Source of the DNA: Panopea generosa
Lineage: Eukaryota; Mollusca; Bivalvia; Adapedonta; Hiatellidae
DNA: 64,000 bases
Assembly: GCA_029582155.1 (NCBI GenBank)
Contig: CM055911.1
Location: 51,521,419 to 51,585,418 of the forward strand
Direction: 5' to 3'
Both the position numbers and the translations under genes were made by a program. Below are positions 16,612-37,700 of this stretch, piece by piece (within the stretch, counting starts at the first letter, position 1; each line of letters opens with the position of its first letter). The notes below the pieces were generated by a model that made no database searches, was not told the DNA's origin, and worked only from the letters and a program-made list of their open reading frames with translations.

Positions 16612-16867
16612 ACGTTGTCTACTTAAGTTAGTATTCTAAACGCTGCCATACTGGAAAAGTATACCCATCAAGTCACTTTATACTGACACCGGGGCGAACA
16701 AACCTAGATCTATCCTCTAAATGGTGAGCGCCAAGCGAGGAAGATACTTGTATATTTTCTTATATTTTTCAAATCTTTGGTATGACCCGGACGGGGATTG
16801 AGCCCACAGCAACCCGCCGGCGATGCGGACACTCTACCCTTCCCCCAGCACCGCTGTGGTTAAACAT
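16612..16867 (-). mobile_element. tRNA-derived SINE, family 3
   Basis: The - strand reads tRNA-like head (B box as complement of GGGATTGAGCC), then a body with ACTTTATACTGACACC and CGCTGCCATACTGG. It is shared with 24702-24983, 36235-36522 and the + copy at 57148-57440. The left edge of segmental copy A falls inside this head. Confidence 0.75.
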
Positions 16868-17057
16868 GCTATAAACGCTGGTAAAAAATACCGAAATCTC
16901 ACTGAAGTAGAGTAAAGCAAACGTATCAAGAAGTTTTGTATATAACTGATATATCTAAAAGATAATAGTATATGTATCGTATATGGGTTGGCGGTACGGA
17001 TAGAAAAGAGTTTAGAGGGAACGACGCTCTGCCAAGAACAGGTATCCCAATGTATAA

Positions 17058-17325
17058 TTTAGCTATATCTGTATTCCCAACGATCAAGATACTTGCACAT
17101 ATTTATTATTTTCATCTCAAGCGCTGCTTATAATCCGTTTGTCTAGTAATTAATTTGTTTTCATTGCATTTGTAACACCATTGTATAGTTCTTGCAAGAT
17201 ATTCAGAAGAGAGACTTTATATAAGCTAGAAATAGCTTTCTTCTCAACTCTATTCTTATGTATCGCTGTATATTTGAATATATTTATATGTAATATGTTG
17301 AAAACGAATAAATATTGTTTAAACT
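17058..17325. other. Segment present only in copy A
   Basis: About 270 bases between CCCAATGTATAAT and TATATATACTGTATG have no counterpart in copy B, where those flanks almost join. The segment ends AATAAATATTGTTTAAACTA, similar to a tail at 20380-20440, so it may be a retroposon insertion in A; a deletion in B is the alternative. Confidence 0.6.
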
Positions 17326-18113
17326 AATATACATAATTTTATGTATATATACTGTATGGCATCTTTGTTAAATAAAACTATCTATTTATCTAAAATTGCT
17401 CCACTGGCACACTATTCCTGCCATTTTCTGAATTTGTTGACCAGTGCTTTAGAATGTAACTTTATCCCATGCTTGGTGACGTGAGGGGCGATGTATGTTT
17501 CATTGTCCCCACCCAATGAACAAACTTTACTTAATATAACCAGGCCTTCTACTGCATCTTTTGGTTGCGTTTTATGCTTTCAATGGGATCTTTTATGAAA
17601 TGTTATTGAATTTGGAAGTTAGCGTAGACAGAATCGTATTGTAGGGTATACAATCGGAAGAGTGTGTAACGAAATATCACAAAAAATACAATTTTGGTGT
17701 CAGATTTAAAAATAAATGTTGTATTTTCTGTCACAAAATTACATGAAAACTGTTTTCAATCTATTGCAAAGTGCTTTTGCTGTTTTTGGTTACATAAAAA
17801 TTGACTGCTGTTGTTTTTCTTGCTGAAATGTATGTATTATTTACATGTATTTTTATCTAACACCGTCGGCAAACGGATATCATAGTATGCTACTAATATA
17901 TTGATATGGCTATCAGTTCATGTATGTGTATTGTACTAACCGCGCAGATATGTTGCATGTAAAACCCTTGCATACATGTATAAGTCATAGTTGACACAAA
18001 TTCTATTAGGTTGGTTATTTCTATGGTATTTTGGTCTAGGTTTGCAATCTGAATATTTGATCGATGTATCTTATCAATTATTTACGAAGCTAATAATATC
18101 ACCATCTTGGTAA

Positions 18114-18353
18114 ATGCATTCATTTTGCTTACATTCCAGTTTCGCCATTATTTACTCGTGTTGGAAAGAGTCCGCAGACGGAACATGTGACAAAGCGAGC
18201 GCGTATGTCGGAGTTCTGCAACGGAGCCCGAAAGTTTTAACGTCAAATAAACGAGCGGAGGTGGACAAAGCTTTGAAAAGCGCATGCGTCGATCCTCGGA
18301 AATTGTCTCCTATTTCCCATTATGGATATTGTCCGGGGCATAATGGATTGTAA
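18114..18353 (+). CDS. Small hypothetical ORF, copy A (79 aa)
   Basis: An open frame from ATG to TAA is kept at identical length, without indels, in copy B (29931-30170). By my alignment the pair differ at about 15 of 240 bases: about 7 silent and 8 replacing, which is fewer replacements than neutral drift predicts. The protein has four shared Cys and no signal peptide or known motif. The DNA is locally GC-rich and contains AGCGCATGCG, which resembles an NRF1-type promoter element, so a conserved promoter or first-exon relic read on the other strand is an alternative. Function unknown. Confidence 0.3.
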   Translation: MHSFCLHSSFAIIYSCWKESADGTCDKASAYVGVLQRSPKVLTSNKRAEVDKALKSACVDPRKLSPISHYGYCPGHNGL

Positions 18354-19374
18354 ATATTAGGAAAACTCTGCATTTGCATTTTTTTGCGTTTTGTTGGGTC
18401 TATGCATTTGATATGAGGTGGTCCATGGTGTTACGCGAGATGCGTTTATCATTTAATAACTAGGCAAAACGTGCCCTGCATGACATTGTGTTTACCTTTA
18501 TCCTGAAATCATATTATAAACATTTATATAAATAAAATATGTTTTACTTATGCTGTAATGAAGATATCTGGCACACGTAAGGCGTATCACTTCATGAGTA
18601 CTACAGCCATGTCCTCTTGCAGATACCGACTGCACGAATGTTGTTAAAGATAATTGCTAGATATAATATTTTATTCACAATATTTTATTATTGAAAAAAT
18701 ATAATATAAGTACTTTTCTTTTTCAAGTGTGTATTTTTGTATGTGTTCTTTCGCTGTGTTCTTTCCACAATATAACCATTTGATATTTAGACATTTATAT
18801 TCCAGCAACGTTGACAGTACCTAACTGGCGTTTCATGTAAACGATAATTAATATTTTATTTACCCCTGTTTTCACCTCTAACTGTTACAGGGAGTCTTTC
18901 AGGAAAGGAACGCTTGAAATGGCTCTAAAAATCTCATCATCATTAATAGATAAAAATCCGAATGGTTAGGTATGTCACATTCATCCAAATGAGACCAAAC
19001 CAATATCTTAATTAGAGTGGTAAACTTGAGACGAAATCCCAATTCTAAAAACCCATTAAATACAAATGAAACACGTTACCTATCTAATAAGACACAAAAT
19101 ATGTGGCAATATAAAGCGGGGAATCTATTTTAAGCTCACCTAGGCGCGTAGTCCAAGTTAGGAAATCCCATTTCAATATATTGTTTTCGTCTGTTTAAAT
19201 AGATAACCTTCGGGCAATACGGGATCAATGAGTATAAATAGTCATGATATACTAAAAAAGTGTTGATACACGTAGTTAATTTTAAATTTTTGAAAAATCC
19301 TGATAAAGTCCTTTTAAACTCTATTGTTATTGAATTAGGTTAAAGGTGAATCGATGTGTATCGATTGGTCATAC

Positions 19375-19898
19375 CACTTTATGATTGACAGTCGTATATG
19401 ACCGTTGTAGGTATGAATTATACATTGATAAACTTTATATAAACATTCACATGCAAACTAATAATTACAGGTAAGAATAACGATAACATCAATCATATTG
19501 TTATTTTTATAATAATTTAGTTTCAATAACTGTTACATTATATTGTTTTATAATTATGTATTTTATAGATAATTTTATAAACATATTTCATTTGAGTACC
19601 TTCGAAAATGTTTTTTTATATTTGGTTATGTGATTACACTTTATGATTGACCATCGTCTATGACCATTGTAGTTATGAATTGTACATTCATTAACTTATT
19701 AATAAACATTCTCATGTAAACTTATCATTACAGGGTTCCTTGTCTTTAATAGAACATTAAAAGGGAACCCATAGTAAACAACCGGCAACATTGGTCGCGC
19801 ACTTCTTTTGACATGGGAATTAGGCTATGTGAATGTTTATTGATTAGTCTATGAATGTATAACTACAATGATCATATACGGCGGTCAATTATCAAGTG
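19375..19898. mobile_element. Foldback element with long inverted ends, copy A
   Basis: The left arm (CACTTTATGATTGACAG, TATATGACCGTTGTAG, AAACATTCACATG) is matched inverted by the right arm (ATGTGAATGTTTATTGATTAG, ACTACAATGATCATATA, TCAAGTG). A second, direct copy of the left arm sits inside at about 19635-19735. The paralogous copy is 31222-31827. Confidence 0.7.
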
Positions 19899-19925
19899 TT
19901 ATGTTTCTCTATATCTTTCTTTTCA

Positions 19926-19944
19926 TCCTCTCTCTGTCTCTTTG

Positions 19945-19988
<44 letters not shown>
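19926..19988. repeat. (CT)n microsatellite, copy A
   Basis: About 60 bases of CT repeat with a few interruptions, just outside the foldback element, at the equivalent place to 31857-31928. Confidence 0.95.
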
Positions 19989-20113
19989 GCGCGCACCGAA
20001 GAGTAAAAAAACACCTTGCTTATACAATGTAACTTATATCGGAATGTCAAAACATGTCACCAGAATAACCATCACTTAGTATTATAATAGCACCTCACTA
20101 TAACTAGGAAACA

Positions 20114-20324
20114 GGGGCACATTTAACACTTCTTAGTGTAAAATTTGGAATTACGAAAAAAGTCGGGAAATTCATTAAGTGTGTCTTAAGTCTTGTATGT
20201 AAGACTTATCAAAAGTATTCTTTCTTAAATTTGCAAAAATACTCCGCAAATGGAACGTACCTAGATGTCACAATTTGTTCGTACAAAATTCTTAAGACTT
20301 AAGAAAGTTAGTGAAACGGGCTCC
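20114..20324. mobile_element. MITE with GGGGCCC-type inverted ends, copy A
   Basis: The left end GGGGCACATTTAACACTTCT and right end AGAAAGTTAGTGAAACGGGC are inverted copies of one another, better seen in copy B (32014-32215) where the left end reads GGGGCCCATTTCACTAACTTC. Confidence 0.65.
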
Positions 20325-20726
20325 AGCTACATATAAGCTATGATAGCTTTCTTCTGGATCCTTTTAACTTGTTATTTAATGTGTATATTGAATGTATGAC
20401 TACCATGTATATTGTGAATAAAATATTGTTTAAACTCAACTAAAACTTTAACGTTTCCCTGCATATAAAATATATAGACATATAGGCCTTAATCTTTCAA
20501 AGAAAAGAGTATTCTTATTTTTTTTTAAATGCACTTTAAACCTTGTGGCGGAGTCATTTGTGATGGAAACTTATCTTGTTAAAAACTTGTCCGAGATATT
20601 GTGGTTATATAACTGCTGTTTAAGTTCAGTTTAACTTCAGTTAAAAATGGGTCACATATCGCAAGTACAAGAAAACAATAACGAACTACGACTACGACAG
20701 CCAAGGTACGATGCCATAAGCTCTAC

Positions 20727-20966
20727 TGGGCTACGTTTCACGAAATAACTTACGATAAAAATCGGCGTAAGTAAATTTTACAATTACTACGTGGTTTGTT
20801 TAAATTCTGATCGACATTTAAATTGATTGTATTTCCAGAAAATTTTCTGCATGGGTTTAGCAATTTTGGATTCATTTCGATGAATATTAAAAATGATATG
20901 AATAAGTGTTGGTTTATATATACGGCGATTTTTCTTGTAAGATTGTTTTGTGAAACGCACCCCTGG
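20727..20966. mobile_element. MITE with CGTTTCAC inverted ends, copy A
   Basis: The left end (GGGCTACGTTTCACGAAATAA ... GATAAAAATCG) and right end (CGATTTTTCTTGTAAG ... GTGAAACGCACCCC) are inverted matches over about 38 bases. It lies within the dispersed repeat cluster; paralogue at 32618-32870. Confidence 0.65.
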
Positions 20967-21768
20967 TCTTTGACCAGTAGGGTCTGCTCATCAAAATAGT
21001 ATTTTCAAAGTTGCGAGGGTAAATAAACATTATCCGACGACGGCAAGTAGATCTAAAACCTGCGATGTTCCCATATTTGACCCCGGCAACTCTACACTAC
21101 TACATATAAAATTCGTACTGTTTAGGTCTTGAAGTAATACTTAAGTTATCCTTCAAATGGACTTATATGCCCTGTGTCATTGTGGGGGAGCATTTTTTGT
21201 CGAATCTTGCTCGATAAAGAACTTGTTGGTGTATAACTTCTTTGAAAGTTTCGTCAAGTTTGGTTAATATTCAATCAAGACTGGTGCTATCGTTTATTCT
21301 AGAAAATTTGAATGTTTTTCTTATATAATTCTTTGTAAAACAGTGACCCCTGAGGAGGTCGGTCACACATTTGACCCCAGGGACCTGACTTTAACAAATA
21401 TTTAAAGGTACTTCATGTGATGCTATATGTAAAATATATAAGTTTTATGCCTTGTACGTTTATTTAATTTTCGTTTAAAAGTGTCTATAAGCTCTGTAGC
21501 GGGGAATATTTGAAGACGAATCATAATTGTTCAATAACCTGTCCGAGATATTGTTGTTATGTAACTGCTGTAAAAGTTTGGTTAAGATTCAATGGGAAAC
21601 GAGGTTGCTATATTCATCGTCTTGACAGGAAATATTTATCAGGTTCCTTTAATTGACTTTATATGGATATCAATTCAATGTTATATGTAAACAATCTAAA
21701 GTTTAGGCCTTGTACTTTTAGAAAAAAATGTTTTAAAAGATTCGCTTCAAATGTGCTAATACGCCCTG

Positions 21769-21771
<3 letters not shown>

Positions 21772-21819
<48 letters not shown>

Positions 21820-21862
21820 TGTGTATGTGTATGTGTGTGTCTGTGTGTGTGTCTGTGGGCGG
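21772..21862. repeat. (GT)n microsatellite, copy A
   Basis: A GT array with CT and AT interruptions. The copy B equivalent (33560-33676) has diverged to include GC-dinucleotide alternation and a G13 run. Confidence 0.95.
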
Positions 21863-22864
21863 TGGATGGTTTGGGGTATTTGTAGTTGTTTAAATAACTT
21901 GTAGTTATATAACTGCTGTGCAAGTTTGGTTAAGATTCAATTAAAATTCGGGATACTATCGTGTCTACAAGAAAATGTTAACCAACGGACGACAGACAAT
22001 TTACCATGACCTACGACAAAAGTCCTGCCCCCTACCCCCCTGCGTAAAGCAAATGCTGGCATAGCATACATATACTGCAATAAGACATCACAGGTTTTAA
22101 AAAGTGACCTTTTTTCACGAGTTTTTCAGGACTTATCTGAGGATGTAATTGCACCATCTTTAAAAAAAACTTTTTAAAAAAAATTTAAGGTGGATTTTGT
22201 TTACCGTGGAAATCCTAGACATTATTTTACAAAGAACAAAGAACAAAATTCAACAGTGTAGTGAAACCTTTAGGTTAATCTGAAATGCTTCAAATACTTT
22301 ATAACGATTAACTGTATGATGAGAGATATAGCCACAGTCAGTACATTTTCTATTCATTTCACATACAACATGAAAACCTTAAGAAACAATGCAGGTGAAA
22401 GACATCAGATTAGGGTAATGTGCGGGGATGTTTGTCAACAGGCCAACGTGAAGACAGGTGCAAGAGTTCAAATGCTAAGAGAAGAATGTATTTTGATAAA
22501 ATTCTTGAAATGAAAATAATTCAATGAGAGGAGTGGGAAAACGTTTTTACCATTATGTCATCTGCGTAGGATACTAGGAGAGTTCAGGCGACGACATGCT
22601 ATTAAAGAGGTTGCCGCACTATAGATTGCGATGTAAAAGTCCACTTCAATGAAAATAACAGACGACTTTCTTATCCAACTACATTAACAGAATCCTTTAA
22701 TAATATTTAGAAGCCACGTGACATTACTTATCACTACATTGGCGTTTAACTGAAATAAAACACATATACACATATAGTTTTAAAAGTGTTTTATTTGCTT
22801 TTATTCAAATATGAAACAAATGTAGAAAGTAACATTTTCACGAATTTATTATTAAGATTTCTTA

Positions 22865-22870
22865 TTTATT
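22865..22870 (-). terminator. Polyadenylation signal, peptide gene A
   Basis: AATAAA on the - strand about 100 bases after the stop codon, conserved at the same place in copy B (34469-34474). A second AATAAA occurs in A only, at 22904-22909. Confidence 0.6.
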
Positions 22871-22971
22871 TGCAGATTATAGGCACATTAAATAAAAAAA
22901 ATGTTTATTAGCTACAGTACGTAGTTGGTAATAAAGGATCTTCGTTTTTGGCGAAAGTATGTCAGCACTGT

Positions 22972-23107
22972 TTACTTTTTCTTTCCATATGGCCATCGTG
23001 GATATCGTGGCCATCGTGGGATTCGTGGCCATCGTGGGATTCGTGGGATTCGTGGGATTCGTGGCCATCGCCAACGTCTAATCCATGCTTTCTTTCCTAA
23101 AGCGTTG
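22972..23107 (-). CDS. Peptide precursor A, exon 4 (mature cationic peptide)
   Basis: Acceptor ATCGTTTTAG. After ALGKK come eight x-P-R triplets built from repeated 9-base units (CCACGAATC / CCACGATGG), ending WPYGKKK and TAA. The DNA repeat makes open frames on both strands here; only this frame fits the splice phases and the paralogue. Confidence 0.85.
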
Positions 23108-24213
23108 CTAAAACGATATATATAACATGGATTTAATGAATATATATATTTATGACATTCAGTCTCACTTGTAAAAGAAGATGGCAAAAATGTATTTCAT
23201 GAAAAGGCCATAAAGTGAGAACATGGACGAAGTTTAAAATCATATCTATGAGTGGTGAATGTACTAATTAACATACACATACTAACTACTAAAACAGGCA
23301 TATAATAACTTAATACATATACTTACTAACATACAAAGATTAACTATATACTAACTAACTAACCTATCATTTTATATACAGCATATGGTCAGCTGCCACC
23401 ACTGAGACGAGCTCTCTGATTGGCCGAAAAAAGTATAGTGATACTCAGGGCATGTTTTATGATAGTAAGCTTATTTCTGGTTGGATGAAAATGTCACACT
23501 GGAAAAGGACCATAATAAAATGAAGTTTATTATGTCATAATTTTATCCCATTTTTTTTTACATTTTTAATTGAGTTTAGGATAGTATTTTAATATGATAT
23601 AGGACTTTTTGGTCCGCACGTGTTAAAAATAATGAAAATAAGGTCAAACGTTATGTTACAAGTCTATGAAAAACGCAATGGCGGTAGCTGATCATAACAG
23701 AAGACACCTGATATCAACAATAATGTCAACAATTTCCTTGACTAAAGATAAATGGCTGTTTTGACATGGCAACATTTCTTTTATAAATCGAAAGATTATA
23801 GCAACTGAAAGAAGAAATAAATATGTCACTTATTTCTTTTTAAATGACACAATATGTAAATTCTTAAATTCTTATATCGTATAATCGTATAAATTAGTAA
23901 AATCTTTTTATCTTCTGTTATATCCATATTATAAAATATAATTTAAGCAGTATTTGAGCAGTATTTAACAAACAAAAAATGAAAATAACCAGTATTTAAC
24001 ATAATTTCTACAAAATTGAGTTTTTAAAAGCATTTATAAAATTGTGTCTGGTTTTAGAAAGAATTGTTGGGTTCCTTAACAAATTTTTATTTGGTCTGTT
24101 TTAGCTAGCATTAACTAGATATAACGACCTTATTTTATACTTACGCTTGCGATGCATCTTCGTCTTCGTTTTCGTTTTCGAGTTCGGATAACACCCTTTT
24201 CATTATTTCTTCA

Positions 24214-24244
<31 letters not shown>

Positions 24245-27200
24245 ACAATCCACGTTTCTGAAGAAAAAAATAATGTTGTGAGATTATCAGTATATATAGA
24301 TTTAAAGATCTCAACAAATATTCTTTCTCATACTCAAATAAATTCTGATTCTTAGAACACCGACATCTTCGTGATCGTTTGGTTTCTTGATAGTCTCTCT
24401 AAAGCCAACTTAAAAGGCGTCGTATTTTAAGCACAGTTCGGTACAAAATACTTTATCAATCGTATATACGCGGCCAATTCTGTCACCATTTTGTTAAAGG
24501 CTATTATGAAATCGACAAGTAGTTGCTAATGACGCTTCATGTACGACAAGAACCTCTTCCACTAGTTAAAGTAGATAACATGTGTATGTCGTGGGGCGTT
24601 GAATAGAGAAATAAAATCCATTCTTCAAGGTACACATGGCAATGTTAAAATTGTTGTTGTATGGTGTCACTTTCAACAATTGCGTTTAAGTCATAACGCG
24701 ACGGTGTGAATTTGAGACAGTATTTTAAGCGCTGCCACACTGGAGTATCATGCCGCTGTCACATGGTATGATACCCTACCCAGTAACATTATACTGACAC
24801 CACCCGGGGCCGATCAGAACTATAACATATGCTTAGCGCCAAAGCAAGGACGCTTCTAGTTCCATTTTTTTTCAAGTCTTTGGTATGACCCTGACGGGGA
24901 TCGAACAAAATACCTTCCGTTCTCACTTTGTGATCTTGCCATGTGAGAAAGACGCTCTATCATTAAAGCACAGCTGCGATATCTATATTTTTAGTAAAGG
25001 TGACCTTGACCAATATATTTAAAAACCAGTCTCAATCCTCAACTTCGTGTTAGAAACCTATATTATCATCTTTCAATAAAATATATCAAAGGAAACTAAA
25101 TTTATACTAAACAAATAAGGGAAACAACTCCTGTAGCATTACATGATGGCAGAGTCTGAAATGCAACCCCATGTACACTGCAACTATAAGCAAGCTTTGT
25201 ACAATTTTGAAATGGATCGTGCAATATGCGTTCGGGTTATTGAGTGTTTTTTTAACTAACATCAATTTACATTTTAAAATATAAATCGTGTTGATTATCA
25301 CAGGCAGAGTTGAAATTCACTATTTTGCAATATCTAATGATAAACAAACTTGTAGTCGGATCCAGCTCTCCCTATTGGGTCCGTTAAAAGCAATGTTGCA
25401 AAGGTCACATTTTAGCACATTTATTGGTCAGTTGCTCAAGGGAACGTTTGAATGACGTCACAGTTTAATAAACGATCAATTGCTATGACAGGCATAGAAT
25501 TCCCTGCTTTTTTCATTTGAGGTTATTAGATCCGATTTGTGAGATATCAACACTACTTAGTTGGACATACACCGTCAAGGGACGAGACGACGGGGCTAAA
25601 GTCGTTCTTGCGATAGGCCAGTCATTTAAAAGATTGCAATAATTTCCTTTTTTTTATTGTATTTTAACTGTTGGTTGTATCTTGTTAACGTTTACGTCAC
25701 TACCACGAATATTCTGGGATGGTATTCACAAACCATTCTTAACAATATTCTTAGACTTGAATTCAAGACTGAATTTTTAAACATACACTTAGAGACCACA
25801 TTTTGAGACCAAGATGTGCAAGCATGCAGGGACACCTAATATATAGTCATATAAACACTCACAATCATTCTATCTATCATGGTAAACTTAATATCTATAG
25901 TTGAAATCTGGATTTTTAAGCTTGAGTCTAAACACAATTCTGACAATGGTTGGTGAATACGACCCCTAGATTTATTCACGTATCGTACTTTATACCTACC
26001 ATGTTTGCTTCATTATCAGCAGCTTCCAGTTGCTGAAGAAGAGCTTTGATATCGACATCTTCATCATCTGACCCGGTATCTGAAACAATATTTAAAGAAA
26101 TCAATGTATAATCATGATCATGGACTCATTATTTCGATATACAACCAGACCTGTGTAGGCGGCCACCTCTATTAGGCAGTCACTTGTCTTAAGCAGCCAC
26201 ATTTACTATTTCCCATCTCTATGATTTCAGAGCATATTAACCTGTATTAAGCAGTAACCTGTCTTAAAACGCCATTTTTCTCCTTCTCTTGACTGACTGC
26301 TTAAGACAGGTTGAACTGTAAACTCAACTCCAATGGAAACATTACACTTTTTTCATTCCACTTCAATGTCAGAGATTAATTAATGCATACATAACAATAT
26401 TTTTCATAGCGTTTTGGCTTATTTGATCTGAAAGTGACAACCCAATTACTCCCATTTTCACAATTGATGTCACATATGACCACCTGCTAGGCATTGTACG
26501 CATCGTCGGCGCATGGACTGGGTTACAGCATCATTTTATGTTGTGGGAAAGCATTCCGCTCCTACGTTAAGGCTTGCGCATGTGTTACTTGTTGCTAGTT
26601 AGTTAGTTTTTGTGATGTAACCATGAGTGCAACATTTTTTTCACGCGCAAATTATGATAGGCCGAGATCGGGTTAATCGTATACATAAACATTAAATAAT
26701 AAATGGTGAAAAGTCATCTTTCATTCGAGTTTGTTTCATTATTTCATTATTAAACAGCAATAATAACATAATTCTCAAAATGTTACAGTACCAGTAAAGA
26801 ATAATGTGTTAAATACATAGAGGGGTAATATACTCTAAATGTGAAATGTATTAACATGAAACTCTTTTTTTACAATAATCTAAAATAATAAAAATAAGGT
26901 ATTAGTATGATGATTTTTGTATAAAAGTTAAATTATCAAATAATAATGAAATAAGATACCAAACAAGTTTGAATTAATTATTTTATTTTATTTTGTCATT
27001 TTGTTTAAAATACATTTTTGGATAAAAAAAAAAGAGATATAATTTGTATAAAAATATATCAGTCTTTTATTCAGATAATATTCTATTAATTAGCGTTAAT
27101 GTTATTAGAAAAATTGTCTTAGCTAGACGTCTAATTGCAGAGCAAAACATAATAAGTCTTTAAGTAAAGACCAAAAATAGACATCACAACATCGCCTCAA

Positions 27201-28311
27201 ACATTATATATATTTTTGGAGGATATTGCAGAGATACATAATACCTTTTTGTAGTGTCCCTGGTTCTTTTACATGCCCGGTGCTAAGCACCGATATATGG
27301 GACTTCGATTTTCTCATCCGAAAGACGGATAAGTATTTTTAGTTGGAGAAGCGAGGGTCGAACCTGCGACCCCTGGGTTCGCAGTCCAAGGCGTTAACCA
27401 CTGGACCACTTATCCACTCCTACTTATTTATTTAAAAAAAAAAGGAAAATGATTCGGTTTGTACATTTTATCGATTTTGAGATCATATCGGACCTTATTA
27501 TTTAGGGTCCGTATTATTTTCTTTGCCTTAAACGTATTCTCTTTACCTCGATTGTGAAACAAGATTTTAAAGCTTAGATACATTACGCTCGATAACTTCC
27601 TGGGTAGAACCAGTACTAAGCATAACGTCCGTATTGTTAATACACCACTAACTGGTATACCAATACGAATTTAATTGTTTTGTTAGCATTGTTTATAGCT
27701 AAATAAAAACATTAAATACATTAACTTCCATTCATCTCAGAAATACAAATCAATTATTTGTTTTTAACAATGACTTTTTCTATAAAACGAGACCATTCCC
27801 AGTAAATTGTGTTTCATATAGTTGAAGTGCGTATGGTTACAATGTACACTGCAACTAAAAAATCAAGGAAAGTACTTGATATTTTGCTTAAAACTGCAAT
27901 ATTTTAAATGAAAGATCATTTTGTGTGTTTAGAACATTATACATCCTGTAAGGTTACATACGCCTTAAATTGTATGTAACAAAAATCAGTTTCCTGTAAA
28001 ATTTAAATGATTAATTTGCCAAATTATTAATTCTTCGTATGCTATTTTATCAACATTTAGTAGAGATATGCAAGTTTCCTTTCCTTCTATAAAAGTCGTT
28101 GTTGTATATGTCAAACCCAAAACGCATAACACAAACACAAGCACATTACAAATTAAATGTTAATAAATTAGCAGAAAGTGCAGTTTTTATTACATTCAAC
28201 TAAGTCTAAATCTAAATGCTATATTCAACACATAAAGTTCAACTTACATTTTGCAGACACGAAGGCCGCCAATATAACACCAACGAGACCAAGTAGCAGA
28301 AGCGTTCTCAT
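22972..28311 (-). CDS. Pro/Arg-rich antimicrobial-type peptide precursor A (4 exons, 130 aa)
   Basis: Exons 28311-28248, 26079-26000, 24257-24145 and 23107-22972 join in frame (intron phases 1, 0, 2; all GT-AG) to 393 bases with TAA. Residues 1-20 are a classic signal peptide (MRTLLLLGLVGVILA). Residues 21-92 are an acidic pro-region with ten consecutive Asp (54-63) and dibasic sites at KR49-50, KR68-69 and GKK90-92. Residues 93-126 are the cationic peptide: it starts AWIRRWRW, then runs as x-P-R triplets (x = W, I or Y); it has 11 Arg, 9 Pro and 6 Trp and ends PY, followed by Gly127 and three Lys, a standard amidation and cleavage signal. Pro/Arg-rich peptides of this kind typically enter bacteria and block ribosomes or chaperones; mussel myticalins are a known linear cationic molluscan example. 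That this one is antimicrobial is inference; a neuropeptide-type precursor is the alternative. The pro-region charge likely neutralises the peptide before release. Confidence 0.8.
23384..23696. mobile_element. MITE in intron 3 of peptide gene A
   Basis: The 313-bp element has ends TATGGTCAGCTGCCACC and GGCGGTAGCTGATCATA, imperfect inverted copies. In copy B the same element keeps a perfect 21-base inverted terminus, so the family predates the duplication. Confidence 0.75.
24145..24257 (-). CDS. Peptide precursor A, exon 3 (poly-Asp pro-region)
   Basis: Acceptor TTTTTTCTTCAG, donor CAAGC|GTAAGT. Opens with the dibasic KR, then GLS and ten Asp encoded by alternating GAT/GAC, then EEIMKR and the acidic SELENENEDEDASQ stretch. 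Confidence 0.82.
24702..24983 (-). mobile_element. tRNA-derived SINE, family 3, in intron 2 of gene A
   Basis: Head at the right (B box complement GGGGATCGAACA, near GGTATGACCCTGACGG), body with TATACTGACACCACCCGGGG and AGCGCTGCCACACTGGAGTA. Inherited in both segmental copies (B: 36235-36522). Confidence 0.8.
25365..25560. repeat. CRE-bearing dispersed repeat, copy A
   Basis: Contains a TTGGGTCCGTTAA block, an intact TGACGTCA at 25453-25460, then CAATTGCTATGACAGG and AATTCCCTGCTTTTT. The family has at least six more members in the window (36890, 41340, 43395, 46012, 56240 and 60345). Confidence 0.7.
25714..25969. mobile_element. MITE with GGTATTCACCAACCATT ends, copy A
   Basis: The left end GGTATTCACAAACCATTCTT and right end ACAATGGTTGGTGAATAC are inverted copies extending imperfectly for about 45 bases (TTAGACTTGA / TTGAGTCTAA). 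Further copies at 37252-37509 and 54110-54308. In intron 2 of the peptide gene. Confidence 0.75.
26000..26079 (-). CDS. Peptide precursor A, exon 2
   Basis: Acceptor TTGTTTCAG, donor ATG|GTAGGT. Encodes residues 22-48, acidic (SDDEDVD) with a helical-looking LLQQLEAAD segment shared with copy B. Two codons longer than its counterpart in B. Confidence 0.8.
26142..26318. mobile_element. Tc1/mariner-type MITE, copy A
   Basis: A palindromic element built around TTAAGCAG and CTGCTTAAGACAGG, bordered by TA. The best-kept member is at 57670-57847, which has exact inverted ends starting CAGTCAAACCT. In intron 1 of peptide gene A. Confidence 0.7.
27252..27417 (-). mobile_element. tRNA-derived SINE, family 5, in intron 1 of gene A
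   Basis: The - strand begins with a tRNA-like head (GTGGATAAGTGGTCCAGTGG as D-arm region, GGTTCGACCC as B box) and continues into a short body ending CCGGGCATG near the left. The acceptor stem does not close, so this is not a functional tRNA gene. Paralogue 38822-38999. Confidence 0.65.
28248..28311 (-). CDS. Peptide precursor A, exon 1 (signal peptide)
   Basis: Codes 21 residues plus one base: start ATG at 28311-28309, hydrophobic core LLLLGLVGVILAAF, likely cleavage after VSA. The donor AAAT|GTAAGTT is a strong consensus. A TATA box lies 54 bases upstream. Confidence 0.85.
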
Positions 28312-28364
28312 CTTGCCAAGTCAAAACAAGAGCGTCGAATAATGTGACAGCCTAAATAATCCCC

Positions 28365-28370
28365 CTTATA
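28365..28370 (-). promoter_or_regulatory. TATA box, peptide gene A
   Basis: TATAAG followed by GGGGG on the - strand, 54 bases before the start codon; the start of transcription would fall near 28338. The equivalent box in copy B is at 40181-40186. Confidence 0.6.
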
Positions 28371-28390
28371 CATAAATATAGATTTTGCTT

Positions 28391-28441
28391 AGTGATGCTT
28401 GCAAAACTTCTAGTGACGCTTGCAAAACTTTAAGTGACGCT
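28391..28441 (-). promoter_or_regulatory. 21-bp upstream repeats, peptide gene A
   Basis: Just upstream of the TATA box are direct units of 21 bases: on the - strand AGCGTCACTNNAAGTTTTGC with CGTCA half-CRE and TTTTGCAA, the latter resembling a C/EBP half-site. A has two full units and a third partial one; copy B has one full and one partial. Role inferred from position. Confidence 0.5.
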
Positions 28442-29646
28442 ACCCTATCTTTATGTAATGTACCCTCGAAGCACATCTGTACCAGTATCTTTTAAAAGTT
28501 TATCCCTGATTTGAAATCATCGGCGATATAATAAATGAACACGTAATGAATGATACACGAAATGAATTCAAATCCGGTTTCAGTCTTACCGGATACTTCT
28601 GATGCTGCTGATTCGCTGAAATCAGTTAACCATGTACCGAATCGCTCAAGAATCTCGGTTAACGTATGATATAGATGTTAGAAACACATTAATCCGCGTG
28701 CGATGCGGACACTTTACCCTTCCCCCAGCACCGCTATAGTTAAACATACTATAAACGCAGGGGGAAAATACCGAAATCTCACTGAGGTAAAATAATGCAA
28801 TTTAAAAGAAGGTTTGTATATAATTGATGTGTCTAAAAGATAATAGTACAAGTATCTTAGGTTGGCGGTACGGATAGAAAGTTCCGCCCAAAAGGATAAC
28901 GGTTTTTAAAGGGAAAGACGCTCTGCCGAGAACAGTTATCCCAATGTATAATATATGTATATAATATGTATATATACTGTATGACATCTATGTTAAATAA
29001 AACTATCTATTTATCTAAAATTGCTCCACTAGTACACTATTCCTGTCATTCTCTGAGTTTATTGACCCATGCTTTAGAATGTAACTTTATCCCTTGCTTG
29101 GGGACGTGAGGGGCGATGCATGTTTCATTGTCACCACCCAATTAACAAACTTTACATAGTACAACCTGGCCTTCTAATTGCATCTTTTTGTTGCGTTTTA
29201 TGCTTTCAATGGGCTCTTTTATGAAATGTTATTGATTTTGGAAGTTAGTTTGGACAGAATAGTATTGTAGGGTACACAATCGGAAAAGTGTGTAACGAAA
29301 TATCACAAAAAAATATAATTTTGGTGTCAGATTTAAAAATAAATGTTGTATTTTCTGTCACAAAATTTTATAAAAACTGTTTTTAATCTATTGCAAAGTG
29401 CTTTTGTTGTTTTGGTAATATAAAATTTGACTGTTGTTGTTTTTCTTGTTGAAATGTATGTGCTATTTTACATGTAGTTTTATTTAACACCGTCGGCAAA
29501 TGGATATCATGGTATGTTACTAATTTATTGATATGGCTATCAGTTCATGTTATGTGTATTGTACTAACCGCACGGATGTGTTGCATGTAAAACCCGTGTA
29601 TACAAGTATTAGTCATAGTTGTGGTATTTTGGCCTTGGTTTGCATT

Positions 29647-29866
29647 GTAGCTAGGTCCGAAAGTGTGTCTGACTATCAATCCAAGGGTGTTAAGTTCGAC
29701 TACCCGTCAGGCCACTTTCCGTGATAGTTGCTATACGGCAATGCTGATACAAATGGGAAAGTAATCATTCACTTGCGCATATGAGTGGTTACCTACCATG
29801 ATCCCAGGAAACAATGGTATCGTCCTTCATGTTATGAAATGACACTTATCAACCAATCAATCAATC
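29647..29866 (+). mobile_element. SINE family 1 inserted in copy B only
   Basis: Copy A reads continuously GGTTTGCAATCTGAATATTT (18040-18059); in B the same flanks are separated by a diverged family 1 SINE with head GTCTGACTATCAATCC, B-box-like AAGTTCGACTACC and an (AATC)n tail that runs into the flank. The insertion therefore postdates the duplication, or A lost it exactly. Confidence 0.85.
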
Positions 29867-29930
29867 TGAATATTTGATCGCTGTATCTTACCAATTATTT
29901 ACCAAGCTAGTAATATCACCATTTTGTTAA

Positions 29931-30170
29931 ATGCATTCGTTCTGCTTCCATTCACGTTTCGCCATTATTTACTCGTGTTGGAAAGAGTCCGCAGACGGAA
30001 CATGTGACAAAGCGAGCGCTGATGCCGGAGTTCTGCAACGGAGCCCGAAAGTTTTAACGTCAAATAAACGAGCGGAGGTGGACAAAGCTCTGAAAAGCGC
30101 ATGCGCCGGTCCACGGAAATTGTCTCCTATTACCGATTATGGATATTGTCCAGGGCATAATGGATTGTAA
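29931..30170 (+). CDS. Small hypothetical ORF, copy B (79 aa)
   Basis: Paralogue of the frame at 18114-18353 with the same start, stop and length; it differs by L6F, S9R, YV31-32DA, VD59-60AG, S68T and H69D. Shared segments include CWKESADGTCDKASA and NKRAEVDKALKSAC. No signal peptide or known motif. The same alternative explanation applies: conserved promoter-like DNA with an incidental frame. Confidence 0.3.
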   Translation: MHSFCFHSRFAIIYSCWKESADGTCDKASADAGVLQRSPKVLTSNKRAEVDKALKSACAGPRKLSPITDYGYCPGHNGL

Positions 30171-31221
30171 ATATTAGGAAAACACTCTGCATTTGCATTT
30201 TTACCGAATTTGCGTTTTGTTAGGTCTATGCATTTGATACGAGGTGACCCATGATGTTACGCAAGATATGTTTATTATTTAATAACAAGGCAAAAAGTGC
30301 TCTTCATGACTTTTTGTTGACCTTTATCCTGAAATCATATAATAAACATTTATATAGATATTAAAATATGTTATACTTATACTGTGGTGAAGATATATGG
30401 CACATGTGAGGCGTGTCACTTCGTGAGTACTACAGCCATGTCCTCTTGCAGATACCGACTGCACGAGTGTTGTTAAGATACTAGATATAATAGTTTATTC
30501 ACCATATTTTATTATTGAAAAAATATAATTTAAGTACTTTTCTTTTTCAAGTGTGTATTTTTGTCTGCGTTCCTTTGCTGTGTTCTTTCCACAATATAAT
30601 CATTTAGTATTTAGACATTTAGATTCAAGCATATCGTTTATCATTGACAGTACATAACTGACGTTTCATGTAAACGATAATTAATATTTCATTAATCCCT
30701 GTTTTCACCTCTACCTGTTAAAGGGAGTCTATCAGGAAAAGAACGCATTAAATGCCTCTAAAATGGATTAAAAGCATTTCATCATCATTAATAAATAAAA
30801 ATCCGAATGGTTAGGTATGTCAAATTCACCCAAACTAGACAAAATCTAAATTAGAGACGAAATCCCAATTTCAAAAATAAACTTGTTAACCTGTGAAACC
30901 CATTAAATCAAAATGAAACACGTTACCCATCTAATTAGACACAAAATATGTGGCAATTTAAAGTGGGAAATCTATTTTAGCCTCACCTGGGCGCGTAGTC
31001 CAAGGTAGGAAATCCCATTTCAATATATTGTTTTCGTCTGTTTAAATAGATAACCTTCGGGCAATACGGGATCAATGAGTATTTATAGGCATGATATATT
31101 AAAAAAGTGTTCATACACGTAGTTAATTTTAAAATTTTAAAAAATCCTGATAAAGTCCTTTTAAACTCTATTGTTATTGAATAAGGTTACGTGTGAATCG
31201 ATGTGTATCGATTGGTCATAC

Positions 31222-31827
31222 CACTTTATGATTGACAGTCGTATATGACCGTTGTAGTTATGAATTATACATTGATAAACTTGTAAATAAACATTCACAT
31301 GCAAACTAATAATTACAGGTAAGAATAACGATAACATCAATCATATAGTTATTTTTGTAATAATTTAGTTTCAATAACTGTTACATTATATTGTTTTATA
31401 AATAGTTTTTTTATGGATAATTTTATAAACATATTTTATTTGAGTACCTTTGAAAATGTTATTTTATATTTGGTTATGTGATTACACTTTATGATTGACC
31501 ATCGTCTATGACCATTGTAGTTATGAATTGAACATTCATTAACTTATTAATGAACATTCACATGTAAACTTATCATTACAGGGTTCCTCGTCTTGAATAG
31601 AACATTCAAAGGGAACCCATAGTAAACAACCGGCAACATTGGTCGCGCACTACCTTTGACATGTGAATGTTTATTAATTAGTCTATGTGAATATTTATTA
31701 ATTAATCTATGCGAATGTTGATTAATTAGTCTATGTGAATGTTTATTTATTAGTCTATGTGAATGTTTATTGATTAGCCTTGAATGTATAACTACAATGG
31801 TCATACACGACGGTCAATTATGAAGTG
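31222..31827. mobile_element. Foldback element with long inverted ends, copy B
   Basis: Same architecture as 19375-19898, but the right arm is longer because of the local tandem expansion listed next. Confidence 0.7.
31660..31783 (+). repeat. 24-bp minisatellite specific to copy B
   Basis: Five tandem units of about TATGTGAATGTTTATTAATT plus AGTC where copy A has a single unit. It therefore expanded after the duplication. Confidence 0.85.
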
Positions 31828-31852
31828 TTATGTTTCTCTATGTCTTTCTTTT

Positions 31853-31856
<4 letters not shown>

Positions 31857-31928
<72 letters not shown>
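31857..31928. repeat. (CT)n microsatellite, copy B
   Basis: CT repeat with one GATT interruption; counterpart of 19926-19988. About 50 bases present after the array in A (including GCGCGCACCGAAG) are missing in B. Confidence 0.95.
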
Positions 31929-31933
<5 letters not shown>

Positions 31934-32013
31934 TTATATCGGAATGTCAAAACATGTCACCAGAATAACCATTATTTAGTATTAAAATAGCACCTTACTG
32001 TAACTAGGAAACA

Positions 32014-32215
32014 GGGGCCCATTTCACTAACTTCTGGAATTATGAAAAAAGTCGGAAAATTCATTAAGTGTGTCTTAAGTCTTGTGTGTAAGATTTATCA
32101 AAAGTATTATTTCTTAAATTTGCAAAAAAATACTGTGCAAATGGAACGTACCTAGATGTCACAATTTGTTCGTACGAAATTCTTAAGACTTAAGAAAGTT
32201 AGAAAAACGGGCTCC
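32014..32215. mobile_element. MITE with GGGGCCC inverted ends, copy B
   Basis: GGGGCCCATTTCACTAACTTC on the left, AAGAAAGTTAG ... CGGGCTCC on the right; counterpart of 20114-20324. Confidence 0.7.
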
Positions 32216-32617
32216 AGCTACATATAAGCTATTATAGCTTTCTTCTGGATCCTTTTAACTTGTTATTTAATGTGTATATTAAATGTATGACTACCGTGTA
32301 TATTGTGAATAAAATATTGTTTAAACTCAACTAAAACTTTAACGTTTCCCTGCATATAAAATATATAGATATATAAGCCTTAATCTTTCAATGAAAAGAG
32401 TATTCTTATTTTTGTTGAAATGCACTTTAAACCTTGTGGCGGAGTCATTTGCGATTGAAACTTGTCTTGTTCAAAACTTGACCGAGATATTGTGGTTATA
32501 TAACTGCTGTTTAATTTCAGTTTAACTTCAGTTAAAAATGGGTCACATATCGCAAGTACAAGAAAAAAATAACGGACTACGACTACGACAGCCAAGGTAC
32601 GATGCCATAAGCTCTAC

Positions 32618-32870
32618 TGGGCTACGTTTCACGGAATAACTTACGATAAAATCGCCGTAAGTCAATTTGACAATTACTACGTGGTTTGTTTAAATTTTGA
32701 TTGACATTTAAATTGATTGTATTTCCAGAAAGTATATCATTTTCTTCATGGGTTTAACAATTTTGGATTTATTTCGAGGAATATTAAAAATAATATGAAT
32801 AAGTGTTGGTTTACATAATTTTTTTATACGGCTATTTTTCTTGTAACTCTTTTGTGAAACGCACCCCTGG
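32618..32870. mobile_element. MITE with CGTTTCAC inverted ends, copy B
   Basis: Counterpart of 20727-20966 with the same termini, enlarged by small insertions near TACATAATTTTTTTATACGG. Confidence 0.65.
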
Positions 32871-33559
32871 TCTTTAACCAGCAGGGTCTGCTCATCAAAA
32901 TGGTATTTTCAGAGTTTCGTGGGTAAATTAACACTATCCGACGACGGCAAGTAGAGCTAAAACCTGCGATGTTCCCATAATTGACCCCGGCAACTCTACA
33001 CTACTACATATAAAATTTGTATTGTTTAGGTCTTGAACTTAATACTTAAGTTATTCTTAAAATGGGCTTATATGCCGTGCGTCAGTGTGTGGGAGCATTT
33101 TTTATTGAATCTTGGTCGATAAAAAACTTGTTGGTGTATAACTCCTGTGAAAGTTTTGTCAAGTTTGGTTAATATTCAATCAATACTGGTTATATCGTTT
33201 ATTCTAGAAAATATGACTGTTTTCTTATATAACTCTATGTAAAACAGTCACCCCTGAGGAGGTCGGTCACAAATTTGACCCCAGGGACCTGACTTCAACA
33301 AATATTTAAAGGTACTTCATGTGATGCTATATGTAAAATATATTTTATACCTTGTACGTTTATTTTATTTTCGTTTAAAAAGTGTTTATACGCTCTGTAT
33401 CGGGAATATTTGATGACGAATCACAATGGTTCAATAACCTGTCCGAGATATTGTAGTTATGTAACTGCTGCAAAAGTTTGGTAAAGATTCAATGGGAAAC
33501 GAGGGTGCTATATTCATCGTTTTTGCAGGAAATCAGGAAAGATTCGCTTCAAATGCCCT

Positions 33560-33560
33560 G

Positions 33561-33596
<36 letters not shown>

Positions 33597-33628
33597 CTAT
33601 GTGTTTGCGTGCGTGCGTGTATGCGTGC

Positions 33629-33659
<31 letters not shown>

Positions 33660-33676
33660 TGTGGGGGGGGGGGGGG
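33560..33676. repeat. (GT)n/(GC)n microsatellite with G13 run, copy B
   Basis: GT array interrupted by GCGTGC units, a run of alternating GC (GCGCGCGCGCGCGCG) and ending in thirteen G. Alternating purine-pyrimidine of this type is Z-DNA prone. Confidence 0.95.
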
Positions 33677-34468
33677 TATTTGTAGTGGTTTAAAGAACTT
33701 GTAGTTATATAACTACTGTGCAAGCTGGTTAAGATTCAATCAAAAGTCGGGATACTATCGCGTCTATAAAGAAAATGTTAACCAACGGACGACAGACAAT
33801 TTACCATGACCCGTGGAAATCCTAGACATTATTTTACATAGAACAAAGAACAAAATTCAACAGTGTTGTGAAACCTTTAGGTTAATCTCAAATGCTTCAA
33901 ATACTTTATAACTATTAACTGTATGATGAGAGATATATCCACAGTCAGTACACTTTCTATTCATTTCACATACAACATGAAAACCTTTAGAAACAATGCA
34001 GGTGAAAGACATCAGATTAGGGTAAGGTGCAGGGATGTTTGTCAACAGGTCCACGTGAAGACAGGTGCAAGAGTTCATAGGTTAAGAGAAGAATGTATTT
34101 TGATAAAATTCTTAAAATCATTCAATGAGAGGAGTGGGAAAATGTTTTTACCATTATGTCGTCTGCGTAGGATACTCGGAGAGTTCAGGCGGAGACATGT
34201 TAGTTAAGAGGTTGCCGCACTATAGATTGCGATGTTAACGCCCTTACAATGTAAATAACAAACGACTTATCCAACCACATTAACAGAATCCTCTCATAAC
34301 ATCTAGAAGCCATGTGACCTTACTTATCACTACACTGGCGTTTTACTGAAATCAAACACATATACAGCTTTAGTTTTTAAAGTGTTATATTTGCTTTTAT
34401 TCAAACTTGAAAGAAATATAGAAATTAACATTTTGAGGAATTGATTATTAACATTTCTTATTATATAT

Positions 34469-34474
34469 TTTATT
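34469..34474 (-). terminator. Polyadenylation signal, peptide gene B
   Basis: AATAAA on the - strand about 100 bases after the stop codon, at the position conserved in copy A. Confidence 0.6.
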
Positions 34475-34573
34475 TGCAGATAACAGGCACATTAAATAAA
34501 AAACAATAATTAGCTACAGAACGTTGTTGGTAATTAAGGATCTTCATTTTTGTCGAAATTCTGTCAGCACTGT

Positions 34574-34706
34574 TTACTTTTTCTTGCCATATGGGTATCT
34601 CCACCATGGATATCGTGGGACTCGGACTCGTGGTAGTCGGATTCGTGGGAGTCGGAATCGTGGAAATCGTGGACGTCGAAACCATCCTCTCTTTCCAACA
34701 GCGTCG
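34574..34706 (-). CDS. Peptide precursor B, exon 4 (mature cationic peptide)
   Basis: Acceptor ATCGTTTTAG as in A. After AVGKR the DNA repeats in 15-base units (CCACGA-NTC-CGA-CTN), unlike the 9-base units of A. Ends YPYGKKK and TAA. Confidence 0.85.
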
Positions 34707-37700
34707 CTAAAACGATATACATTCAATGGATTAAATGAATATATGTATATGACATCCAGTCTCACTTGTAAAATAAGATGTCAAAAATGTATTTAATGAA
34801 AAGTCCACAAAGTGAGAACATGGAAGTTTAAAATCATATCTATGAGTGGTGAATGTACTAATTCATATACACATACTCAACTCAATATTCGAACTCAAAT
34901 ACTAACACAAGACACATAATAACTTAATACATGTACTAACTAACATACAAACATTAGCTATATACTAACTAACCAACCAATCGTTTTATTACAGCATATG
35001 GTCAGCTACCACCATTGAGACAAGTTCTCTGATTGGCCGAAAAAAATTATAGTGATACTCAGGGCATATATTATGATAGTAAGCTTATTTCTGGTTGGAT
35101 GAAAATGTCACACCGGCAAATGACTACAATAAAAGTTTATAATGACATAATTTTATCCCATTCTTTTTTTACATTTTCATTTAAGTCTAGGAAAGTATTT
35201 AAATATGATATAGGACATTTTGGTCCGCAAATGTTAAAAATAGTGAAAATAAGGTCAAAACGTTATATTAAAAGTCTACGGAAAACGCAATGGTGGTAGC
35301 TGACCATAAGAGAAGACACCTGCTATCAACAAGAAAGTCAACAATTTCCTTGACTTTAGATAAATGGCTGTTTTGGCATTGCATCATTTTTTTTGAAATT
35401 GAAAGATTATAGCAACTTAAAGAAGAAATAAATATATCATTTATTTCTTTTTAAATGACACAATATGTAAATTTTTAAACACCTTTATCGTATAAAATCT
35501 ATCTTAAGTAGTATTTAACCAGTATTTAACACACAAAAAATGGAAATTACCAGAATTTAACAGAATTTCTACAAAAATTGAGTTTTTAAAAGTATTATTA
35601 AAATTATGTCCGGTTTTATAAATAATGGTTGAGTTCGTTAATAATATTTTTTTTGGTCGGTTTAGCATTTACTAGATATTTAATACTAACGCTTGCGATG
35701 CATCTTCGTCTACGCCTTCGTTTTCGAGTTCGAATAACATCCTTTTCATTATTTCATCATCATCATCATCATCGTCATCGGCATCATCGCTATCGTCATC
35801 GTCTAATCCACGTTTCTGAAGAAAAAATAATGTTGTGAGATTATCAGAATAATTAGATTTAAAGATCATATCAAATTTTCTTTCTCATTCTCAAATATAT
35901 TCTGATTCTTGGAACACCGACATCTTCGTGACCATTTTGTTTCATGATGGTCTCTCTAAAGCCAACTTAACTGGCGTCGTATTTTAAGCACAGTTCGGTA
36001 CAGGATACTTTATCAATCGTATTTATGCGGCCAATTCTGTCACCATTTTGTTTAAGGCTATTATGAAATCGACGAGTAGTTACTAATGACGCTTTATGTG
36101 CGACAAGACCCTCTTCCACTAGTTAAAGTACAAAGTAGATAACATGTATATTTTGTGGGTAGTTTAACAGAGAATTAAATCCCAAAGTACACATGGCAAT
36201 GTTTAGCATCACTTTCAACAATATTTTTTCCAGTCATAACGCGACGGTGCGTATTTGAGACAGTATTCTTAGCGCTGCCACACTGGAGTATCATGCCGCA
36301 GTCACATTATTTGATACCCTACCCAGTAACATTATACTGACACCACCCGGGGCCGACCAGAACTAGAGCGTATGCTTAGCGCCGAAGTAATGACGCTTTT
36401 AGTTCCATTTATTCAAGTCTTTGGTATGACCCCTACGGGGATCGAACCAAATACCTTCCGTTCTCACTTTGTGGCCTTGCCATGTGATGCAGACGCTCTA
36501 TCATTAAATCACAGCTGTGATATCAAGATTTTAAGTAAAAGTGACATTGACCAATATCTTAAAAAATAGTCTCAATCCTCCACTTCGTGTGAGGAACCTA
36601 TATATGATCTTTCAATAACATATATCAAAGGAAACTAATTTTATTGAGCAAATCATACTGAAAAAATAAAGGTGCAAAATTCATGATGTGAGAATCTGAA
36701 AAGCTATCCCATGTTCACTGCAATTATAAGCGAGCTTTGTACAATTTTGAAATGAATCGTGCAATATGCGTTCGGGTTATTGGGTGTTTTTTTAATTAAC
36801 ATCACTTTACATTTTAAAATTTAAATCGTGTTGATAATCACAGGCAGAGTTGAAATTCAATATTTTTGCAATATCTAATAAGTCTGTAAAACGGGTTCAG
36901 TTATCCGATTGGGTCCGTTAAATAGCAATGTTGCAAAAGTCACATTTGAGCACGTTGATTGGTCAGTTGCTTAAGGGAAAGTTTGAATGACGTCACAGTT
37001 GAATAAACGATCAATTGCTATGACATGCATGGAATTCCCTGCTTTTTCATTTGGGGTTATTAGACCCGATTCGGGAGACATCAACACTACTTAGTTGGAT
37101 ATACAACGTCAAGTGAAGAGACGGCAGGGCTAAAGTTGTATTCGCGATAGGCCAATTATTTAAAAGATTGCGATAATTTAAGGGTTTTGGTATTTTAACA
37201 GTGGATGTATTTTGTTAACGTTTACGTCACTACCACAAAAGCTCAAATATTCTGGGGTGGTATTCACCAACCATTCTTAACAATATTCTTAGACCCGAAT
37301 TCAAGACTGAATTTTCAAACATACACTTAGAGACCACATTTTGAGACCAATATGTGCAAGCATGCAGGGACACCAAATATATAATCATATAAACACTCAC
37401 AATAATTCTATATATCATGATATAAACTTAATATCTAAGGTTAAAATCTGGATTGTCTAGCTTGAGTCTAAAAACAATTCTAATAATGGTTGGTGAATAC
37501 TACCACTGGATTTAGTCACATATCGTACTTTATACCTACCATGCTATTATCAGCAGCTTCCAATTGCTGGAGAAGAGCTTCGACATCTGCATCTTCATCA
37601 ACTTTCCCGGTATCTGAAACATTATGTAAAGAAATCAATGTATACCCATGATCAGGGACTCATTATTTAGATATACAGCCAGACCTGTGTACGCGGCCAC

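Follow-up and report, generated by a model that had tools for sequence, protein, structure and literature searches.

The 64,000-nucleotide stretch of contig CM055911.1 analysed here (the window) carries on its minus strand a gene of four small coding exons, which we refer to as copy A, and this gene probably encodes a secreted, processed antimicrobial peptide (AMP). The four-exon gene is real, and the strongest evidence for it is a paralogue, copy B, which was absent from the first-pass annotation of this DNA. A chance origin of the gene is very unlikely because this second full copy keeps every exon, splice site and phase.

Copy A extends from an ATG at 28311 to the end of a stop codon at 22972, and the joined coding sequence of 393 nt encodes a 130-aa precursor. 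The introns are 2168, 1742 and 1037 nt long, in phases 1, 0 and 2, with donors GTAAGT, GTAGGT and GTAAGT and acceptors TTTCAG, CTTCAG and TTTTAG. The first-pass annotation had proposed this model and its coordinates, and both were borne out: the four exons, the GT-AG introns and the in-frame joins were all verified, and the signal peptide (recognised by eye), the acidic exon, the poly-Asp exon with its MKR sites, and the AWIRRWRW and PYGKKK motifs that it had listed are all present. The product consists, in order, of a 20-residue signal peptide, which we read by eye as probably cleaved after VSA, an acidic pro-region containing MKR sites and a run of ten Asp residues, GKK, a 34-residue Arg/Pro/Trp-rich peptide, and GKKK; in exon 4, AWIRRWRW is followed by eight PR dipeptides, and PYGKKK stands at the end. 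The features of copy A, with signals upstream and downstream that are consensus matches only, are as follows.

28365..28370, minus strand: TATAAG, possible TATA box, 59 nt upstream of the ATG
28248..28311, minus strand: exon 1, coding part; signal peptide MRTLLLLGLVGVILAAFVSA (by eye) and K; phase-1 donor GTAAGT
26000..26079, minus strand: exon 2; YTGSDDEDVDIKALLQQLEAADNEANM (split Y codon); acidic pro-region; donor GTAGGT
24145..24257, minus strand: exon 3; KRGLS, then a run of ten Asp, then EEIMKRVLSELENENEDEDASQ; acidic pro-region containing KR sites; donor GTAAGT, phase 2
22972..23107 (stop included), minus strand: exon 4; NALGKK cleavage site, mature AWIRRWRWPRIPRIPRIPRWPRIPRWPRYPRWPY, GKKK amidation signal, stop
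22865..22870, minus strand: AATAAA, possible polyadenylation signal; three more AATAAA lie within 22800-22972

A tblastn comparison of the precursor with the window places copy B at 40125-34574 on the minus strand, 11.5-11.8 kb upstream of copy A. It retains every copy A exon, GT-AG site and phase, as well as the start and the stop, and its 131-residue precursor has the copy A layout, with a 33-residue peptide, GWFRRPRFPRFRLPRIRLPRVRVPRYPWWRYPY, followed by GKKK. The features of copy B, the first and last again being consensus matches only, are as follows.

40181..40186, minus strand: TATAAG, possible TATA box, 61 nt upstream of the ATG
40062..40125, minus strand: exon 1; signal peptide MKTLLLLAFVGVILAAFVSA and K
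37540..37613, minus strand: exon 2; YTGKVDEDADVEALLQQLEAADNSM
35691..35815, minus strand: exon 3; poly-Asp pro-region, extended in frame by 12 nt; donor GTTAGT
34574..34706, minus strand: exon 4; DAVGKR site, mature GWFRRPRFPRFRLPRIRLPRVRVPRYPWWRYPY, GKKK, stop
34469..34474, minus strand: AATAAA, possible polyadenylation signal, the sole one within 34400-34574

Self-blastn places the two copies in a direct tandem duplication with a unit length of about 11.8 kb, which spans 16805-40483, with its junction near 28.69 kb and the pieces of the two units matching in order.

16805..28693, unstranded: tandem duplication unit 1, which holds copy A
28685..40483, unstranded: tandem duplication unit 2, which holds copy B

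Within the window, tblastn matches at E<1e-5 are confined to copies A and B, and the next match has an E of 0.23. A candidate third copy at 56-58 kb was rejected, as the intron-matching fragments there are non-collinear and were taken as dispersed repeats. The duplication units also carry stretches resembling open reading frames, at 22274-22510 and 33881-34207.

The repeat composition of exon 4 leaves all three of its frames largely open in each copy, and openness alone is no proof of any of them. Frame 0 is favoured: the first AG and the splice phase lead into it, GKK or GKR precedes and GKKK follows the peptide that it encodes, and it has the highest score between A and B, 120 (29/47 identities), with a small lead over the 106 (28/46) of frame +1 and with the remaining frame at 75 (20/46). 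The next acceptor for exon 4, TTTAG/GAAAG, was rejected as it runs into a stop (reading KESMD and then a stop codon), and TTTTAG/CAACGC fits. Frame +1 of the peptide exon (22975-23107, minus strand) is mostly open in both copies and encodes an acidic, His-rich sequence (HESHESHD), which is a possible dual-coding curiosity.

In a single MAFFT alignment of the two copies, on which the counts of insertions and deletions rest, all five exon length differences are multiples of three, compared with 10 of 61 in the introns (Fisher p=3e-4). Kimura two-parameter (K2P) distances between the copies are 0.12-0.14 for intron 2, intron 3 and the 5' flank, 0.20 for intron 1, and 0.14 and 0.08 for the near and far parts of the 3' flank; those of exons 1 to 4 are 0.05, 0.15, 0.13 and 0.30. 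Nei-Gojobori codon analysis, with a script of our own, gives a synonymous divergence (dS) of 0.26 and a non-synonymous divergence (dN) of 0.117 for the pro-region, consistent with constraint, and a dS of 0.22 and dN of 0.25 for the mature peptide. The mature part has probably changed at an accelerated rate: 19 of 93 codon-aligned mature sites differ, compared with 171 of 1715 in intron 3 and the 3' flank (p=0.003), although alignment within the repeats is uncertain. It is clear that the peptide has been rewritten while its charge, Arg number and GKKK were held: both mature peptides have a charge of +11, 11 Arg residues and GKKK. When 19 random changes were simulated in A, the frame remained open with a charge of at least 11 and at least 18 Pro plus Arg residues in 1.6% of 20,000 trials.

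The peptide exon is built of short in-frame repeats, and slippage could therefore remodel the peptide quickly. Tandem Repeats Finder identifies a different register in each copy, as follows.

22990..23070, minus strand: 9/18-nt minisatellite encoding the Pro-Arg-X (PRX) triplets of copy A
34612..34663, minus strand: 15-nt repeat register where RLPRI/RLPRV/RVPRY of copy B are encoded, read on the minus strand

The PRI and PRW triplets of A correspond to the RLPRI, RLPRV and RVPRY pentads of B, and we infer slippage of short coding repeats as the simplest explanation of the remodelling between them.

The first-pass annotation had proposed a Pro/Arg-rich antimicrobial peptide, a reading that is strengthened by the paralogue but is still unproven, and a molluscan origin, which is plausible. 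While the gene anatomy, the duplication and the conservation of processing signals and charge are demonstrated, from the sequence we infer expression, processing along the following lines, antibacterial function and a membrane mechanism. The signal peptide would be removed after VSA, and the acidic pro-region, with a net charge of -19 in A and -21 in B when counted through the terminal dibasic pair, would neutralise the +11 C-terminal peptide and keep it from doing harm within the secretory pathway. Cleavage by a proprotein convertase after GKK (A) or GKR (B) would follow, a carboxypeptidase would trim the terminal KKK, and an amidating monooxygenase would convert the exposed Gly, giving AWIRRWRWPRIPRIPRIPRWPRIPRWPRYPRWPY-NH2 (34 residues) from A and GWFRRPRFPRFRLPRIRLPRVRVPRYPWWRYPY-NH2 (33 residues) from B, with calculated monoisotopic masses of 4686.67 and 4496.55 respectively. 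The same last steps, carboxypeptidase trimming and amidation, have been proposed for myticalin A of Mytilus (PMC12294457).

These linear Arg/Pro/aromatic peptides would most likely kill bacteria, and we lean towards membrane binding and permeabilisation as the main route. A membrane-active peptide is favoured because myticalin A5 inhibits translation in vitro significantly only at 100 μM (PMC5577615) and because a review reports that myticalins permeabilise E. coli membranes (PMC11678341). Ribosome targeting is less likely, and an intracellular target such as nucleic-acid synthesis is possible; A5 nearly abolishes T7 RNA polymerase activity at 10 μM (PMC5577615). The criteria of Welch et al. 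for proline-rich antimicrobial peptides (PrAMPs) include at least 25% proline, a net charge of at least +1, antimicrobial activity, and an intracellular target, either the 70S ribosome or DnaK (PMC11678341). Mature A, with 26.5% proline, reaches the proline threshold and mature B does not, and the +11 of both mature peptides lies above the charge threshold. A PRP motif, which these criteria do not require (PMC11678341), is present in neither mature A nor mature B.

The closest known design is that of the myticalin A peptides, such as A5 (YSWPRMPRIPRLPRYPRYPRYPRWPRWPRQPTIYA-NH2), which likewise have PRX triplets with aromatic or aliphatic X, lack Cys and are 26-37 residues long, have an amidation Gly with three basic residues and an acidic pro-part, and belong to a tandem multigene family with a hypervariable mature region (PMC5577615, PMC12294457). 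The PRX repeats and amidation signal that characterise myticalin A are found in both copies, with eight PR dipeptides in A, five in B, and GKKK in each, although unlike in myticalin A, X is Tyr in only one of the eight triplets of A. The minimum inhibitory concentration (MIC) of A5 is 2 μM on E. coli and 4 μM on B. subtilis, and A5 and A8 both have low-micromolar MICs on E. coli (PMC5577615). The precursors are nonetheless organised differently. Myticalins have a signal, a cationic mature peptide, a dibasic site and an anionic C-terminal extension, whereas the order here is signal, acidic pro-region, dibasic site, mature peptide and GKKK; their genes have three exons, with exon 1 restricted to the 5' untranslated region and a two-exon coding sequence with a phase-1 intron, whereas there are four coding exons here, with phases 1, 0 and 2; and the mature peptide is in exon 2 of three, rather than in the last of four coding exons (PMC5577615). 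Compared by eye, the signal peptide MRTLLLLGLVGVILAAFVSA is also unlike the myticalin consensus MKGXXLLLLTIXXALCMIXECEG (PMC5577615).

To what extent the mature peptides resemble myticalins was assessed with shuffled sequences and the published A3, A4 and A5 peptides. When all residues are shuffled, mature A scores above 2000 of 2000 shuffles with each of the three, and the scores of B are reached by 6, 9 and 23 of 2000 for A3, A4 and A5 respectively. When Pro and Arg are held in place, the scores of A are ordinary for A3 (reached by 543/2000) and A5 (198/2000) and marginal for A4 (24/2000), and those of B are reached by 701, 1257 and 1627 of 2000. Beyond the PRX pattern, five of these six comparisons, which cover A and B with A3, A4 and A5 only, show no significant similarity. 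The product appears to act in the way that myticalins do, but membership of the family was rejected, as the precursor order, gene structure and signal peptide differ, and independent arrival at a PRX-repeat design appears better supported than a shared origin. We give an even chance to the fuller proposition that a separate AMP family reached the myticalin A design independently, with an inverted precursor, and that slippage rewrites its peptide (in 9-nt versus 15-nt repeats) with charge and processing signals held fixed.

Several observations weigh against the reading as a processed antimicrobial peptide. With 21.2% proline, mature B falls below the 25% PrAMP threshold, and frame +1 of exon 4 keeps its acidic His/Asp/Glu/Ser composition with a score near that of frame 0 (106 versus 120). 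The signal peptides of A and B differ by three non-synonymous and no synonymous changes, the slower change of exons 1-3 relative to introns is not significant (p=0.09), and exon 4 has an even distribution of substitutions among its codon positions (12/43, 10/43, 10/44), with no third-position excess. The acceleration of the mature part is also not significant when all introns and flanks are pooled (p=0.065), a contrast that fades because intron 1 is itself diverged, with its K2P of 0.20. Taken singly, the simulated outcomes are not rare, with no stop in 17% of trials, a charge of at least 11 in 15% and at least 18 Pro plus Arg in 11%, and no stop occurs jointly with a charge of at least 11 in 3.6%. 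Activity among the myticalins is also uneven, since all seven myticalins tested on Vibrio anguillarum, A5 included, have MICs above 32 μM, and that of D5 is above 32 μM on all six strains (PMC5577615).

An unlikely alternative, which is compatible with antimicrobial function, is that this is a rearranged true relative of the myticalins, in which a PRX exon, whether inherited or shuffled out of a myticalin A gene, became linked to another signal and pro-region. Mature A does align without gaps to A5 over 28 residues of PRX triplets, its full-shuffle scores exceed every shuffle, and the amidation Gly with three basic residues is common to both; however, the comparisons with Pro and Arg fixed are ordinary except for the marginal one between A and A4, signal peptide, exon number, intron phases and domain order all differ, and myticalins and modiocalins have been reported only from Mytilus and Modiolus (PMC5577615). 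A secreted product that serves some other purpose, for example an acidic/basic peptide of shell matrix or mucus or a signalling peptide, is improbable. Poly-Asp acidic pro-regions and amidation do occur in other secreted precursors too, but there is one peptide per precursor here, and a mature sequence that diverges while its charge is kept fits defence better than a receptor ligand.

A defence peptide read in frame 0 of exon 4 also has to be set against the proposition that a downstream acceptor shifts the exon into frame +1, giving an acidic His-rich tail (HESHESHD...), in which case the basic peptide would be either absent or one of a pair of products. Judged by eye, an AAAG lying 16 nt beyond the acceptor would give access to frame +1 and bypass an early stop in copy A, and that frame is mostly open in both copies with a score close to that of frame 0; but this acceptor also looks poor by eye, the first AG gives frame 0, which scores highest, and only in frame 0 is the peptide flanked by GKK or GKR and GKKK, so that we consider the shift highly unlikely. 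The rapid change of exon 4 with no third-position excess would also fit two pseudogenes in decay, or a minisatellite that is open by chance, yet neither copy has a frameshift or stop, insertions and deletions are in frame only, and all splice sites are kept while introns 2 and 3 differ by about 12%, making this the least probable of the explanations considered.

Further comparable peptides are known from other animals. The mammalian peptides Bac5, Bac7 and PR-39, and the Trp-rich indolicidin, are C-terminal Pro/Arg- or Trp-rich peptides freed from a cathelin pro-domain, whereas no Pfam match above cut-off was obtained for the pro-region of the present gene. In Hydra arminin precursors, a cationic C-terminal region comes after an anionic N-terminal one. 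Hydra periculin-1 also has this order (PMC11767717), but arminins are alpha-helical and periculin-1 has eight Cys, and neither is described as a PRX-repeat peptide in the available portion of that source (PMC11767717). Among bivalves, the modiocalins of Modiolus are cationic Pro/Arg-rich peptides with an anionic precursor part, although their myticalin-type layout is opposite to that of the present gene (PMC5577615). Cg-Prp of Crassostrea gigas is similarly molluscan with a C-terminal proline-rich region, but has a 61-aa precursor with two PRP motifs, and the available portion of the review mentions neither a PRX array nor a poly-Asp pro-region (PMC11678341).

The first-pass annotation had called the gene undescribed-looking, which holds for the precursor, as it was not found in open-access papers, but not for the mature peptide, which is of a known design with a pattern close to that of myticalin A. 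Long peptide strings of the gene were not found in open-access papers, and among the matches listed there no description of the precursor was recognised from titles or the starts of abstracts. For the short strings PRYPR, PRIPR and PRWPR in open-access papers, the only AMP papers recognised by title among the matches listed treat myticalins. A protein search with precursor A gave 219 candidates sharing words with it, none with E<=0.1; a retroelement-like control from the window was also matchless, so this result has little bearing on novelty and the protein collection probably lacks the relevant animal group. In Pfam, neither precursor has a hit above cut-off, the best E values being 0.22 (A) and 0.026 (B), both sub-cut-off and over the acidic part. 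A search of the PDB with the 38-residue tail of A only gave eight sequences with E<=10, the best at 0.1, with collagen-like peptides leading.

Elsewhere in the window, a possible secreted lipocalin-like gene of about three exons is located at 11744-16476 on the plus strand, with FTGKWYGTLKTG in its middle piece; in Pfam, its last piece matches Lipocalin at E 0.04, below cut-off, and the other two pieces have no lipocalin match. Within intron 1 of copy A, 27240-27420 has by eye the look of a tRNA-like internal promoter and is possibly a short interspersed nuclear element, and a tRNA finder reported zero tRNAs in the window. Large tandem arrays in a 24-nt register (periods 72, 48 and 24) occupy 49593-53282 and contain long open frames on both strands, for example 50968-51702 (244 aa), whose openness is probably repeat-driven. 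Ten copies of a 29-nt unit, CTGCTATTTAACGGACCCAATTGGGAGAT, lie at 43555-43847 beside sequence with matches to dispersed repeats in other parts of the window. A retroelement-like fragment at 45464-45788 on the plus strand has the motif CxCGxEFEDAEHF, which we take to be one found in molluscan long interspersed nuclear elements and thus a weak hint of the taxon.

Few molluscan antimicrobial peptides are Cys-free (PMC12294457). If the peptides are active and the host is a mollusc, amidated PRX peptides would have a second source in this gene, whose precursor is inverted, and two candidate sequences would be ready to hand. Copies A and B also offer a compact natural case in which to follow the remodelling of a putative defence peptide, possibly through repeat slippage, alongside a pro-region that remains similar.

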